Assembly: GCA_945872795.1 (NCBI GenBank)
Contig: CAMCAZ010000026.1
Span: forward strand, 1 to 45,569
Direction of reading: 5' to 3'
Origin: Chryseobacterium gleum
GTDB lineage: Bacteria > Bacteroidota > Bacteroidia > Flavobacteriales_F > PHOS-HE28
Length of the DNA: 45,569 nucleotides
The stretch's first letter is position 1; each line of letters starts with the position of its first letter. The position numbers were made by a program, and so were the translations under genes. The notes below the pieces were generated by a model. That model was not told where the DNA came from. It made no database searches and was given only the letters and a program-made list of their open reading frames with translations. Positions 1-7,638 of the stretch are shown here, piece by piece.

Positions 1-3219
<3,219 letters not shown>

Positions 3220-3221
3220 TG

Positions 3222-3764
3222 ATGGGCGGTTCTGATGATTTGGGCGTGCCGGTTCGCAGAGCCTCACCGTCGCGCTTTCCGCTGCAACTCCGCGCCCGGA
3301 TTACCGGGCTTGCGGGATTTCCGCTTCAATCGCTCACGCGAGGCTCCCGTTCGCTAATCACATTTCTTTTTGGGACTGTTGTCCTGTTCTCCGGGTGCAG
3401 CACCGATAGTGGTTCGTCCACCGAAAACAGCGACCGTGTTGATGAGGCCAAAGCACCTATTGGAAATAGTTGCGCTGATCTTCAGACGTCATTCACCTCC
3501 TACACCGAGGCGATGGATCGAATCCGGTCGGCGTCCTTCCGCATCGCCGAAGAACAGAACACGGATGAAAGCTCATGGGTCCGAGGTTCCGAGTTCTACA
3601 GTTGCGATGGCGCAACCGGATTCTTCATCCTCCGCACCGATGACCGGGACTACATCCACGTTGACGTGCCAGTTGCAGTGTGGCAGGGGTTCAAAGAAGC
3701 CTCATCGTTCGGGAGCTTCTACAATATGAACATCAAGAGGCGCTATCGCCTCGTCTTGAACTGA
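3222..3764 (+). CDS. KTSC-domain protein, possible lipoprotein with repeat-derived N-terminus
   Basis: The C-terminal ~75 residues resemble the KTSC domain (from about FYSCDGATGFFILRTDDRDY to SFGSFYNMNIKRRYRLVL), a small domain often found alone or beside nucleic-acid enzymes; its function is not established. Before it lies a lipobox-like hydrophobic stretch, ITFLFGTVVLFSGC, with the Cys at codon 59 if ATG 3222 is used. The start is a problem. No ATG, GTG or TTG occurs between GTG 3246 and the hydrophobic stretch, and bases 3243-3346, which would encode an Arg-rich leader, are a dispersed repeat. ATGs at 3216, 3219 and 3222 overlap or abut the end of the mutase gene. Either the protein has an unusually long n-region, or the repeat displaced the original start. 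It overlaps the next gene as TGATG and is the first gene of a three-gene cassette. Domain fairly sure, start unsure. Confidence 0.6.
   Translation: MGGSDDLGVPVRRASPSRFPLQLRARITGLAGFPLQSLTRGSRSLITFLFGTVVLFSGCSTDSGSSTENSDRVDEAKAPIGNSCADLQTSFTSYTEAMDRIRSASFRIAEEQNTDESSWVRGSEFYSCDGATGFFILRTDDRDYIHVDVPVAVWQGFKEASSFGSFYNMNIKRRYRLVLN
3243..3346 (+). repeat. Dispersed repeat, left copy flanking the AbiV cassette
   Basis: It begins GGGCGTGCC and contains CTTGCGGGATTTCCGCTTCA followed by ATCGCTCACGCGAGG. A related sequence occurs in the opposite orientation at about 5606-5721 and shares the GGGCGTGCC end, the TTCCGCTTCAATC core and a CACG(c)GAGG end. From memory, similar TTTCCGCTTCAATC-type repeats are scattered in Bacteroidota genomes; that is recollection, not a search result. 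The copy is in frame with the KTSC gene. Confidence 0.7.
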
Positions 3765-4879
3765 TGCCATTACATTCGACACACATGAAGCGCATCGTTG
3801 CCAAAGAGTTCCTGCTGCTTGTCGGCTGCGTTGTGGTCGTGTTACTCGTAGCGCTTGTGGGTTGGACACGCAACGTCTGGCTGAGCCAACGCATCCACAA
3901 CATCAGAAGTGAGCATGCAGAGCAATTAATGGTTCTAGATTCCCTCCGGGCAGAAACTGATTCTGTTTCCCTCAATTTCATCGAACTGTTCGACACTGCC
4001 TTTGTGCACGGGCACCCAGATGTATTCATTGGCCAACGCCCTTTGCATATTGGTTCTGGGTCCTATTCAATGGACGACCTGCTCAGCGATTTCAGTCGAA
4101 TCTATCTCGCGTGCTTGTTCAACACCCTCAGAGAAACCGGCTACTATTCTCAGTCGAGAATGGAAGAACTGACCGTAGCTAGTCGGATGAAATCTCGAAT
4201 GGCAAATCCAATTTTGAAGGAAGCGCGACGAAACTGGGCAGGACTTGAAGAACCGCCAATTGAGGTTAAAACACCTGATGGCATCGTCATCGGCTTTCCA
4301 TCCTCGATGGGTCGGATTGATATGGCCGATGTCATGGGTATGCTCTACGCGAACCCTACGAAAGGGAGACCTCGGAATTTGCTTCATCGTGAATCACATG
4401 ACCCTAGGCGCTCCAGCAGTGCAGTCTTGTTGGATGCGTTGTTACTGAATGAACACCAAGGTCTCGGAGAGATTGTCAGCGCCGCTTACTCGACTGTGGG
4501 CGATTCGGTGTCTTACCAGATGGCATTGGCCTTTTCGAAGACCGTCATGCACGAATCGCCTGCACATGAGAATCTGCGTAACGCATATGACCACTTGGCA
4601 CAACGCAACGTGCTTATCTGCGCCTTCGATGAGTTGCTCTACACTCTCCAGCGCAAGCCGGTGCCGCCAACGCAAGAAGCGTTGGATGCGCTCGCGACAC
4701 AGAGAGCAACCGTGGACGAGTTACGCAAGGAAGAGAATGACGCTCGGACTAGCCTGTGGAGCGGGGCCAAGCAATGGGCAGTGGTGAAGTGGGCCGCGAT
4801 CGTGCTGCTCGTATTGGTCTATCCGTTGCGCTTGCTCGTTCTGGGAACACGCTGGGCATTGCGCACATTGAGATCGTAA
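3764..4879 (+). CDS. Membrane-anchored protein of unknown function, partner of AbiV-like gene
   Basis: I do not recognise a family. With the ATG at 3764 the protein has 371 residues; that ATG overlaps the upstream TGA as TGATG, which favours translational coupling. ATG 3785 (MKRIVAKEF) is an equally plausible start. One hydrophobic segment lies near the N-terminus (about residues 15-34, LLLVGCVVVVLLVALVGW). A probable second one lies at the extreme C-terminus (about 340-365, WAAIVLLVLVYPLRLLVLG). Between them is a ~300-residue, mainly helical-looking soluble region with no catalytic motif I can name. A short coiled-coil-like stretch (ATQRATVDELRKEENDAR) precedes the C-terminal segment. Base composition is clearly less GC-rich than the mutase upstream or hipA downstream. 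Its stop overlaps the AbiV-like start as TAATG, so the two proteins are probably made together, perhaps as a membrane sensor or anchor for the HEPN protein (inference). Confidence 0.8.
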   Translation: MPLHSTHMKRIVAKEFLLLVGCVVVVLLVALVGWTRNVWLSQRIHNIRSEHAEQLMVLDSLRAETDSVSLNFIELFDTAFVHGHPDVFIGQRPLHIGSGSYSMDDLLSDFSRIYLACLFNTLRETGYYSQSRMEELTVASRMKSRMANPILKEARRNWAGLEEPPIEVKTPDGIVIGFPSSMGRIDMADVMGMLYANPTKGRPRNLLHRESHDPRRSSSAVLLDALLLNEHQGLGEIVSAAYSTVGDSVSYQMALAFSKTVMHESPAHENLRNAYDHLAQRNVLICAFDELLYTLQRKPVPPTQEALDALATQRATVDELRKEENDARTSLWSGAKQWAVVKWAAIVLLVLVYPLRLLVLGTRWALRTLRS

Positions 4880-5565
4880 TGGCCAAGTTGAAGGAGGTCC
4901 AACACTGGGGTTCGCTTTCCGCAGAGAAGGTGGCCGAAGGCGTGAATGCCGCCTTCGGTAACGCTCAGGAGCTATACGATGAGGCAGAGATCCTTTTCAA
5001 ACAAGGGCGCTTCGCTCGTGCTGCATCACTGGCCGTTCTGAGTATCGAGGAGGTCGGCAAAGTGTTCTTACTTCCACTGCTACTGACCACGACCAACAAG
5101 CAGGACCTAAGGCTCATCTGGAAGGGATACCGGAATCACAAGCACAAGAATAATCATGTGCATCTGCAAATGACCAAGGGTGCCCTACAACCACTTACTC
5201 GGCACTCTGTTGCCCCTGCCGCATCAATTGACAAGTGGAGCGATGGGTTGGATGATATTAAGCAACTGGGCTTCTACACTGACTGCACAACCACTAAGGA
5301 TTGGGGTATACCGTCGGATGCGATCAAAGAGGCCGGTGCAGCACAAGTCATGAAGATTGCCGCGAACAGCCTAACCAAGTATCGCGGCTTGGATTCGTTT
5401 GGTTCCGTTCCCTTTTGGGAGATATGGAGTAAGCACATGATCGGCATGATTGACATGACCGAAGACCAGAAGCACGCAGCCTTCATTGCCGTCTTCGACG
5501 AAGCTGAGAAGAGTGTGCTTATCGAGTCTGGTTCCCGTGACGCAATGGAGGCCTTCCTCAAATGA
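4879..5565 (+). CDS. AbiV family HEPN protein (abortive infection)
   Basis: The 228-residue protein resembles AbiV-family HEPN proteins. The N-terminal half has the pattern DEAEILFKQGRFARAASLAV then LSIEEVGKVFLL (about residues 34-66), and further on WKGYRNHKHKNNH (about 81-93). AbiV proteins protect lactococci from phage by shutting down translation of phage products. HEPN proteins are often RNases, but the usual R-x4-6-H spacing is not exact here, so nuclease activity is not shown. The start is ATG 4879, overlapping the previous stop by one base (TAATG); an upstream in-frame ATG at 4756 lies inside the preceding gene and is unlikely. It is the last gene of the cassette, and an inverted copy of the repeat found before the cassette follows it. 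Confident in the HEPN/AbiV assignment, less so in an anti-phage role. Confidence 0.8.
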   Translation: MAKLKEVQHWGSLSAEKVAEGVNAAFGNAQELYDEAEILFKQGRFARAASLAVLSIEEVGKVFLLPLLLTTTNKQDLRLIWKGYRNHKHKNNHVHLQMTKGALQPLTRHSVAPAASIDKWSDGLDDIKQLGFYTDCTTTKDWGIPSDAIKEAGAAQVMKIAANSLTKYRGLDSFGSVPFWEIWSKHMIGMIDMTEDQKHAAFIAVFDEAEKSVLIESGSRDAMEAFLK

Positions 5566-5605
5566 ACTGACGCTTTCGCCGTGTGCTTGAGTTGTGCATT
5601 CCTCG

Positions 5606-5721
5606 TGACGGATTGAAGCGGAAAGCCCGCAAGCGAGGAGCCCGGCTCGAGGCCTTGATGACGAGTGCGGACTTGAAGCGAAGAGCCGGACCCGGCTGCT
5701 CTTGAGCCGGGGCACGCCCTC
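5606..5721 (-). repeat. Dispersed repeat, right copy (inverted) flanking the AbiV cassette
   Basis: Read on the minus strand it starts GGGCGTGCC, contains CTTCGCTTCAAGTCCGC, then CTTGCGGGCTTTCCGCTTCA, and ends CGTCACGAGG. These blocks match the copy at 3243-3346 in the same order, with the middle more diverged. Together the copies bracket the three-gene cassette in inverted orientation. Confidence 0.7.
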
Positions 5722-5968: not shown

Positions 5969-6334
5969 ATGGCTACAAGCAACATCTACTGGCAAGGCCT
6001 GAGCGACACCCAGGCGGTGGAGCAACTGGGCACGGAACTGCGGCGCATGCGGCTGGAGCGCAACCTGAGCCAAGCCGAGGTGGCCACCCGCGCCGGCCTG
6101 GACCGCACCACCGTGGTGAAGCTGGAGGCCGGTAGGGCCGCCACCCTGCTCACCGTGGTGCAGGTGCTGCGCGCCATCGGGCGGCTGGAGGTGCTCGATG
6201 GCTTCCACCAGGAGCCGCAGCCCACGCCCTACATGCTGGTGGAGGCGCAGGAGAAATACCTGAAGAAGCAACGCAAGCGCGCCGGGCGTAAGAAGCCCGC
6301 AGTGGTGCCGCCCAAACCCAAGAGCACATGGTAA
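5969..6334 (+). CDS. hipB: HipB-type antitoxin, XRE-family HTH regulator
   Basis: The 121-residue protein has a helix-turn-helix of the XRE/Cro type at about residues 20-75 (LRRMRLERNLSQAEVATRAG, then LDRTTVVKLEAG). It is followed by a basic C-terminal tail (KKQRKRAGRKKPAVV). HipB neutralises the HipA kinase and represses the operon. The gene overlaps hipA by 7 bases, typical for antitoxin-toxin pairs. The operator palindromes and the promoter box lie directly upstream. It is longer than E. coli HipB; the basic tail may contact DNA or HipA. Start ATG 5969 is the first codon that keeps the whole HTH. Confidence 0.9.
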   Translation: MATSNIYWQGLSDTQAVEQLGTELRRMRLERNLSQAEVATRAGLDRTTVVKLEAGRAATLLTVVQVLRAIGRLEVLDGFHQEPQPTPYMLVEAQEKYLKKQRKRAGRKKPAVVPPKPKSTW

Positions 6335-7638
6335 CGCACGCCAAGGTGACCCTGTGGGGCCAGGTGGTGGGCGTGGTGGTGTGGGACGACCAGCTGCAAC
6401 GCGCCACCTTCCAATTCGACCGCGCATTCACGCAGAGCGGGCTGGACGTGGCGCCGATCATGATGCCGCTGGCCCAGGCGCGCGGAGGCGACGAGGTGTT
6501 CAGCTTCGGCGATGTACGCGACGAGACCTTCCGCGGGCTGCCGGGCCTGCTGGCCGACAGCCTGCCCGACCGCTTCGGCGAGCAGATCCTGAACGCGTGG
6601 CTGGCCACCCAGCGGCGCACGCCCGGCAGTGCCAACCCCGTGGAACGCCTCTGCTACACCGGTCGCCGCGGTATGGGCGCGCTGGAGTTCGAGCCGGCCC
6701 ACAACGACTGGGAGGCGAGCAGCGATGCACTGGAGGTGGAGGAGCTGGTGCGCGTGGCCAACAACGTGCTGTACCAACGCGAAGCCTTCGCCACGAACAA
6801 GAGGAAGGGCCGCGCCGAAGCCTTGCTGGACATCCTGCAGGTGGGCACTTCGGCCGGCGGCGCGCGGGCCAAGGCGATCGTGGCCTTCAACGCGGAGACC
6901 GGCGAGGTGCGCAGTGGCCAGATCGACGGGCTGCCAGGCTTCACCTATTGCCTGATCAAGTTCGACGGGGTGACCAACGAGAAGCTCGGTGACCCCAAGG
7001 GCTACGGCCGCATCGAGTATGCCTACCACCTGATGGCGCGGGCCTGCGGTGTGGAGATGATGCCTTGTCGCCTGCTGGAAGAGCGCGGTCGCGCGCACTT
7101 CCTCACCCAACGCTTCGACCGCGTGCGCGATGCGGAAGGCACGGTGCACAAGCTGCACATGGCCACGCTCTGCGGCATCGCGCACATGGACTACAACCAG
7201 CCGCTCGCGCACAGCTACGAGCAGGCCTTCCAGGTGATGCGGCTGCTGGGCCTGCCCTACCCGGCCGCGGTGGAGCTGTTCCGCCGCATGTGCTTCAACG
7301 TGGTGGCCATGAACCGCGACGACCACACGAAGAACATCAGCTTCCTGATGGACCCGCAGGGCGACTGGCACCTGGCACCGGCCTACGACGTGACCTACGC
7401 CTACCACCCGGAAAGCCTGTGGCTACGGCAGCACCAGATGAGCGTGAACGGCAAGCGCACGGACATCACCCGCGAGGACCTGCTGACCGTGGCGAAGGCC
7501 ATGAACATCAAGAAGGCCGCGGCGATCATCGACGAGATGAAGGCCGGCGTGCGGAAGTGGAAGTCCTTTGCAAAGCAGGCGGCGATGCCCACGAAGCAGG
7601 TGGAAATGATCGGAAGGATGCACCAGGTGCGGATCTGA
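6328..7638 (+). CDS. hipA: HipA-type serine/threonine kinase toxin
   Basis: HipA toxins are kinases; the E. coli enzyme phosphorylates glutamyl-tRNA synthetase, halting translation and causing persistence. The 436-residue length is normal. An N-terminal HipA_N-like region (VTLWGQVVGVVVWD to about residue 110, with LPGLLADSLPDRFG) precedes the kinase core. Visible motifs are the Gly-rich phosphate loop GTSAGGARAK (about 173-182), the catalytic loop NRDDHTKN (329-336; D331 and N336 correspond to the usual catalytic Asp and metal-binding Asn), and AYD with D354 as second metal ligand. All key residues are present, so the toxin should be active. The target in this organism is unknown. It is translated from an ATG overlapping the hipB stop, and no further gene follows for 234 bp. 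Confidence 0.93.
   Translation: MVTHAKVTLWGQVVGVVVWDDQLQRATFQFDRAFTQSGLDVAPIMMPLAQARGGDEVFSFGDVRDETFRGLPGLLADSLPDRFGEQILNAWLATQRRTPGSANPVERLCYTGRRGMGALEFEPAHNDWEASSDALEVEELVRVANNVLYQREAFATNKRKGRAEALLDILQVGTSAGGARAKAIVAFNAETGEVRSGQIDGLPGFTYCLIKFDGVTNEKLGDPKGYGRIEYAYHLMARACGVEMMPCRLLEERGRAHFLTQRFDRVRDAEGTVHKLHMATLCGIAHMDYNQPLAHSYEQAFQVMRLLGLPYPAAVELFRRMCFNVVAMNRDDHTKNISFLMDPQGDWHLAPAYDVTYAYHPESLWLRQHQMSVNGKRTDITREDLLTVAKAMNIKKAAAIIDEMKAGVRKWKSFAKQAAMPTKQVEMIGRMHQVRI

Follow-up and report, generated by a model that had tools for sequence, protein, structure and literature searches.

Across a Bacteroidota genus, the interval from mcm to hipBA serves as a site of cargo exchange, or hotspot, and a three-gene cassette that ends with an AbiV-family HEPN gene is one of its many alternative cargoes. 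The cassette was found in a window of 45,569 nucleotides, which is the whole stretch of DNA that was analysed and is part of contig 26 of a 3.3-Mb genome (G000). In the explanation that we prefer, for which we judge the chances to be about even, the laterally exchanged cassette would probably be anti-phage, with AbiV as its effector. From its location and the family of its last gene, a role of the cassette in defence is likely. The weakest step of this explanation is the idea that the products of the three genes work as a single system. The hotspot and a two-ended membrane-protein family, one member of which is encoded in the cassette, are the broader results. The mcm-hipBA interval offers a defined site for the search for new defence genes in these little-studied Bacteroidota.

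The three plus-strand genes of the cassette lie between the stop codon of mcm, at 3219, and hipBA, which begins at 5969. The features of the locus are as follows.

19 to 3219, plus strand: mcm, a fused methylmalonyl-CoA mutase-like gene and left border of the hotspot (open reading frame; C-terminus found in the genus)
3222 to 3764, plus strand: KTSC-domain ORF, core from about 3339, start uncertain (Pfam KTSC match)
3238 to 3343, minus strand: left copy of a dispersed repeat of about 110 nt (nhmmer 87.7 bits, E 1.8e-26)
3764 (or 3785) to 4879, plus strand: two-ended membrane protein (hydropathy, relatives and the TGATG overlap with the KTSC ORF)
4879 to 5565, plus strand: AbiV-family HEPN protein, 228 aa (Pfam, NCBIfam and PADLOC matches)
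5594 to 5718, plus strand: right copy of the dispersed repeat of about 110 nt (nhmmer 78.5 bits, E 1.2e-23)
5969 to 6334, plus strand: gene for a hipB-like HTH antitoxin; it forms the right border of the hotspot and lies outside the cassette (Pfam HTH_3)
6328 to 7638, plus strand: hipA-like kinase toxin, outside the cassette (Pfam HipA_C, 171.6 bits)

Layout and composition of the cassette

The KTSC ORF, the two-helix membrane protein and the AbiV-family protein are encoded in this order and in the same direction. An earlier note on this DNA had claimed that the genes are joined by TGATG and TAATG overlaps, that they are lower in GC than their surroundings, and that they encode a KTSC-domain protein, a membrane protein of no recognised family and an AbiV protein. 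All of this holds. The TGATG overlap at 3762-3766 joins the KTSC ORF to the membrane gene, and the TAATG overlap at 4877-4881 joins the membrane gene to AbiV; the starts are kept in a second species, and the ATG within the TGATG overlap is conserved in both relatives at the same site (G001 and G044). The third-position GC content (GC3) of the three genes is 0.66, 0.60 and 0.62, compared with 0.80 +/- 0.05 for the 20 other genes of the window, a difference of 2.7 to 4 standard deviations (z = -2.7 to -4.0). By GC3, the composition of the cassette is foreign. The KTSC ORF matches Pfam KTSC (PF13619) with 31.6 bits, above the cut-off of 25, in a match that covers only positions 27-58 of the 58 in the profile. 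AbiV matches Pfam HEPN_AbiV (PF18728) with 118.1 bits, the cut-off being 27.1, and for the membrane protein no family of Pfam, NCBIfam or PADLOC scores above the cut-off.

The mcm-hipBA hotspot and the dispersed repeat

The interval from the end of mcm to hipB was fetched from the 45 genomes of the genus, and 25 intervals could be measured (counterparts L022-L053). The left border, mcm, carries a family name that we take from knowledge of such sequences rather than from a profile search; its C-terminal 192 aa are found in 34 of the 45 genomes. The hipB-like gene beside mcm is conserved across the genus, and hipA is present in 31 of the 45. The shortest interval measures 207 bp and the longest 7.4 kb, and the cargo mostly differs between them. 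A cytosine methylase with a BsuBI/PstI-type endonuclease, which is a type II restriction-modification system by its profiles, is found in G002, and a SoFic-type Fic protein in G043, with close copies in G035 and G044. Further cargoes are an HNH protein with an mREase_IV match (G029), a DUF4145 protein with a PD-T7-4 match (G033), an Sll1717/PDC-M28C ATPase (G038) and a RecQ/UvrD helicase fusion of 1608 aa (G035, L042:2347-7170). Some of the cargo, namely beta-lactamase-like proteins, PKD-type secreted proteins and unknowns, is not defence-like.

hipBA is thus a resident border. The positions from 3.2 to 7.6 kb had been read previously as a small defence island that includes hipBA, and this reading does not stand. 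Such an island would hold several acquired systems side by side, and here there is one cassette next to a resident hipBA; hipBA was rejected as an island member, being conserved in the genus as is the end of mcm. A hotspot whose cargo differs between genomes is the more fitting description of the locus. The locus is variable, and relatives carry defence-type cargo in this interval.

The two copies of the dispersed repeat are the only ones in the window above an E-value threshold of 0.01, and a 31-nt core of the two is 90% complementary. There are few copies in the whole 3.3-Mb genome. A plus-strand copy lies behind the cargo in 15 of the 25 mcm-hipB intervals, while only G000, G001, G044 and G002 have an inverted copy at the mcm end. 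The dispersed repeat is a genus-wide intergenic element. The earlier description of copies in opposite orientation at the two sides of the cassette is borne out, but copies also follow other cargo, and for this reason the repeats are no more than putative ends of a mobile unit. Their interpretation as cassette-specific terminal repeats is unsupported, a copy trailing unrelated cargo at many loci. Short intervals, of 207 and 302 bp, belong to G018 and G020, and an exact empty site was not established. No REP-associated tyrosine transposase (RAYT) was seen in the cassette. RAYT-like ORFs lie just after mcm in four relatives (L033, L023, L044 and L028), and the two of these that were scored reached 39 of 80 bits, under the NCBIfam cut-off.

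Two minor observations concern these elements. Elsewhere in G000 (L056, about 1433-1536), a copy of the dispersed repeat lies directly 5' of a gene whose start is clearly lipoprotein-like. A linker inside mcm (2540-2602) holds a near-perfect palindrome, in frame and with arms of 26 nt; relatives carry different palindromes at the same linker position, and in three of these 20-22 bases are matched.

The three gene products

The KTSC ORF has a lipoprotein-like hydrophobic stretch and a cysteine (LITFLFGTVVLFSGC). The segment RGSRSLITFLFGTVVLFSGC resembles a lipoprotein signal, and there is no usual start codon shortly upstream of it. The frame is open from the ATG at 3222 through the left repeat, with no ATG closer to the signal-like stretch; its 56 codons across the left repeat stay open in both same-site relatives. 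The dN/dS of the KTSC gene against two relatives is 0.2-0.5. KTSC was not found in phage records. A KTSC protein described as DNA-binding occurs with a HerA ATPase and a nuclease in HerA ATPase systems (PMC9503650). As in those systems, the KTSC-domain protein here belongs to a predicted defence operon; unlike in them, its domain follows a signal-like stretch and is predicted to lie outside the cytoplasm.

The conserved homology of the membrane protein begins at the methionine encoded at 3785. Numbered from this residue, the transmembrane segments given by hydropathy are residues 9-27 and 337-355. The charge pattern and hydropathy suggest that both ends are inside the cell and that the middle is periplasmic; the structure model, with a mean pLDDT of 44, is too poor to test this topology. 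Using a profile built on the two ends, relatives were found in several families of Bacteroidia. The N-terminal end has a K and the motif A-(K/R)-E ahead of the helix, and at the C-terminal end the helix is followed by (Y/F)-P-x-R and W-(A/S). The best relatives, which match at both ends, are in G050, G173, G372, G057 and G151, and loci with family members are L113, L114, L115, L116, L117, L118 and L120. The relatives are 156 to about 370 residues long and cannot be aligned in the middle. This unnamed family, with conserved ends and a variable middle, spans the Bacteroidia and is nameless in Pfam and NCBIfam. Four repeat units of about 26 residues make up part of the middle in the proteins of G001 and G044 (L011 and L014), and self-similarity above that of 100 shuffles is also found in those of G173 and G151; by the same shuffle test, such repeats are absent from the protein of the window. 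No membrane-protein relative was found on plasmids.

Where the context was readable, relatives outside the genus are mostly solitary amid housekeeping genes, and none of those examined adjoined AbiV or KTSC. Together with the envelope nature of the KTSC lipoprotein and the membrane protein, this context would agree with an envelope-stress or housekeeping operon that includes a HEPN RNA-binding protein and has no part in defence. We regard such an operon as very improbable, considering that the composition of the cassette is foreign, that its genes are present in few of the 45 congeners, and that it lies in a hotspot with defence-type cargo.

The assignment of the third gene product agrees across libraries: in addition to Pfam, it matches NCBIfam TIGR04498 (105.3 bits, cut-off 27) and the PADLOC AbiV model (E 5e-6), and by sequence profile it matches the solved AbiV structures 9bj5-9bj7 with an E of about 1e-3. 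Among 13 AbiV sequences, E57, H87 and Y133 are invariant, and E58 and P145 are nearly so. There is no Rx4-6H at the corresponding position of the window protein. AbiV is known to lack this classical motif and to have a conserved E-E and H (PMC3710099), so that in these residues, and in a profile match far above the cut-off, the protein resembles the lactococcal family. The structure model of AbiV, based on two sequences, is helical and, with a mean pLDDT of 52, too poor to test the HEPN fold or the active site. Among the 395 genomes that were sampled from the class, 13 have an AbiV gene. The AbiV genes elsewhere are mostly single, and none examined outside the genus adjoined a relative of the membrane protein. 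One Klebsiella and one Vibrio plasmid carry full-length relatives (33-35% identity) that have different neighbours. None was found in viral contigs, and phage records gave one weak partial match.

Partners or neighbours

A complete cassette was found in one other genome of the genus, G044, where it occupies the same site, shows the same overlaps and has a Fic gene behind it. At this site in G001, the KTSC and membrane genes are present and the AbiV slot is occupied by a gene whose 223-aa product contains two hydrophobic helices and has no similarity to the product of the gene behind the membrane gene in G173. At another site in G042, a shorter relative of the membrane protein is encoded next to the remnant of a KTSC gene and to a type I restriction-modification methylase-like gene, and AbiV is absent. 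G029 retains a KTSC fragment close to a contig end. The proposed co-occurrence of the three genes in other genomes is therefore borne out in G044, but at the orthologous site only, and G001 lacks AbiV; with two genomes and a single orthologous site, it comes close to one observation. To our knowledge, AbiV has not previously been described together with a KTSC protein and a two-helix membrane protein.

The histories of the genes differ. Between G000 and G001, dS is 0.12 for KTSC, 0.43-0.73 for the adjacent mcm and 1.9 for the C-terminus of the membrane protein, all of which are rough values from short alignments. The low dS of KTSC relative to the other two indicates that segments were exchanged separately, which makes the operon a mosaic. 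The dN/dS values, which are 0.24-0.33 for the membrane protein (G001-G044) and 0.14-0.15 for AbiV (G000-G044), in addition to that of KTSC, show that the cassette genes are under purifying selection.

These discordant histories would be expected if the genes were neighbours rather than partners, with KTSC and the membrane gene forming an envelope unit behind which a stand-alone defence gene, AbiV, had landed. The other gene in the AbiV slot of G001, the membrane gene of G042 next to its KTSC remnant, and the AbiV genes of other genera and of the two plasmids, which have no such partners, favour this reading as well. However, the TAATG overlap between the membrane gene and AbiV is identical in G000 and G044, and the dS of AbiV between them, 0.6, is similar in magnitude to the value for mcm next to the cassette, which indicates that this arrangement is not recent. 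We consider mere neighbourhood a possible but doubtful account. The case for a joint mechanism rests on gene starts whose overlap is conserved in two species, and its likelihood is roughly equal to that of the genes being simply neighbours.

Lactococcal AbiV arrests translation. In the preferred explanation, the AbiV of the cassette would be kept inactive until infection and would then stop protein synthesis, or attack RNA through a non-canonical HEPN site, leading to abortive infection. The membrane protein and the KTSC lipoprotein may act at the envelope, as a sensor or as a restraint. The effector slot behaves as if it were exchangeable, a different membrane-anchored protein replacing AbiV in G001. 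A more specific version, which we hold to be unlikely, is a three-part abortive-infection system that reaches from the envelope to the cytoplasm, in which the KTSC lipoprotein and the two-ended membrane protein sense phage and free an exchangeable effector. The fast-changing periplasmic middle of the membrane protein would then take part in phage detection at the envelope. If the three genes do act together, AbiV gains an input from the envelope side, and the question of its trigger becomes testable by gene deletions.

Membrane-associated HEPN proteins have the HEPN domain and the transmembrane segments fused in one chain (PMC3710099). The proposed coupling of an envelope sensor to a cytoplasmic HEPN effector is similar, but here the two parts are encoded by separate genes and their coupling is putative. 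Furthermore, the AbiV entry in the same survey lists no partner, while the present gene is the third of an overlapping operon, after the KTSC and membrane genes.

The gene order and overlap could also be those of a toxin-antitoxin system, with AbiV as the toxin, the membrane protein as its restraint at the membrane and the KTSC protein as an accessory. In G015, an AbiV gene lies downstream of one that encodes a SocA/Panacea antitoxin domain (66.7 bits; for the domain, see PMC8832971), and AbiV can therefore have an antitoxin-like partner. Against such a system, which seems to us decidedly improbable, other AbiV genes of this sample have no evident antitoxin, and G001 retains the membrane protein without AbiV.
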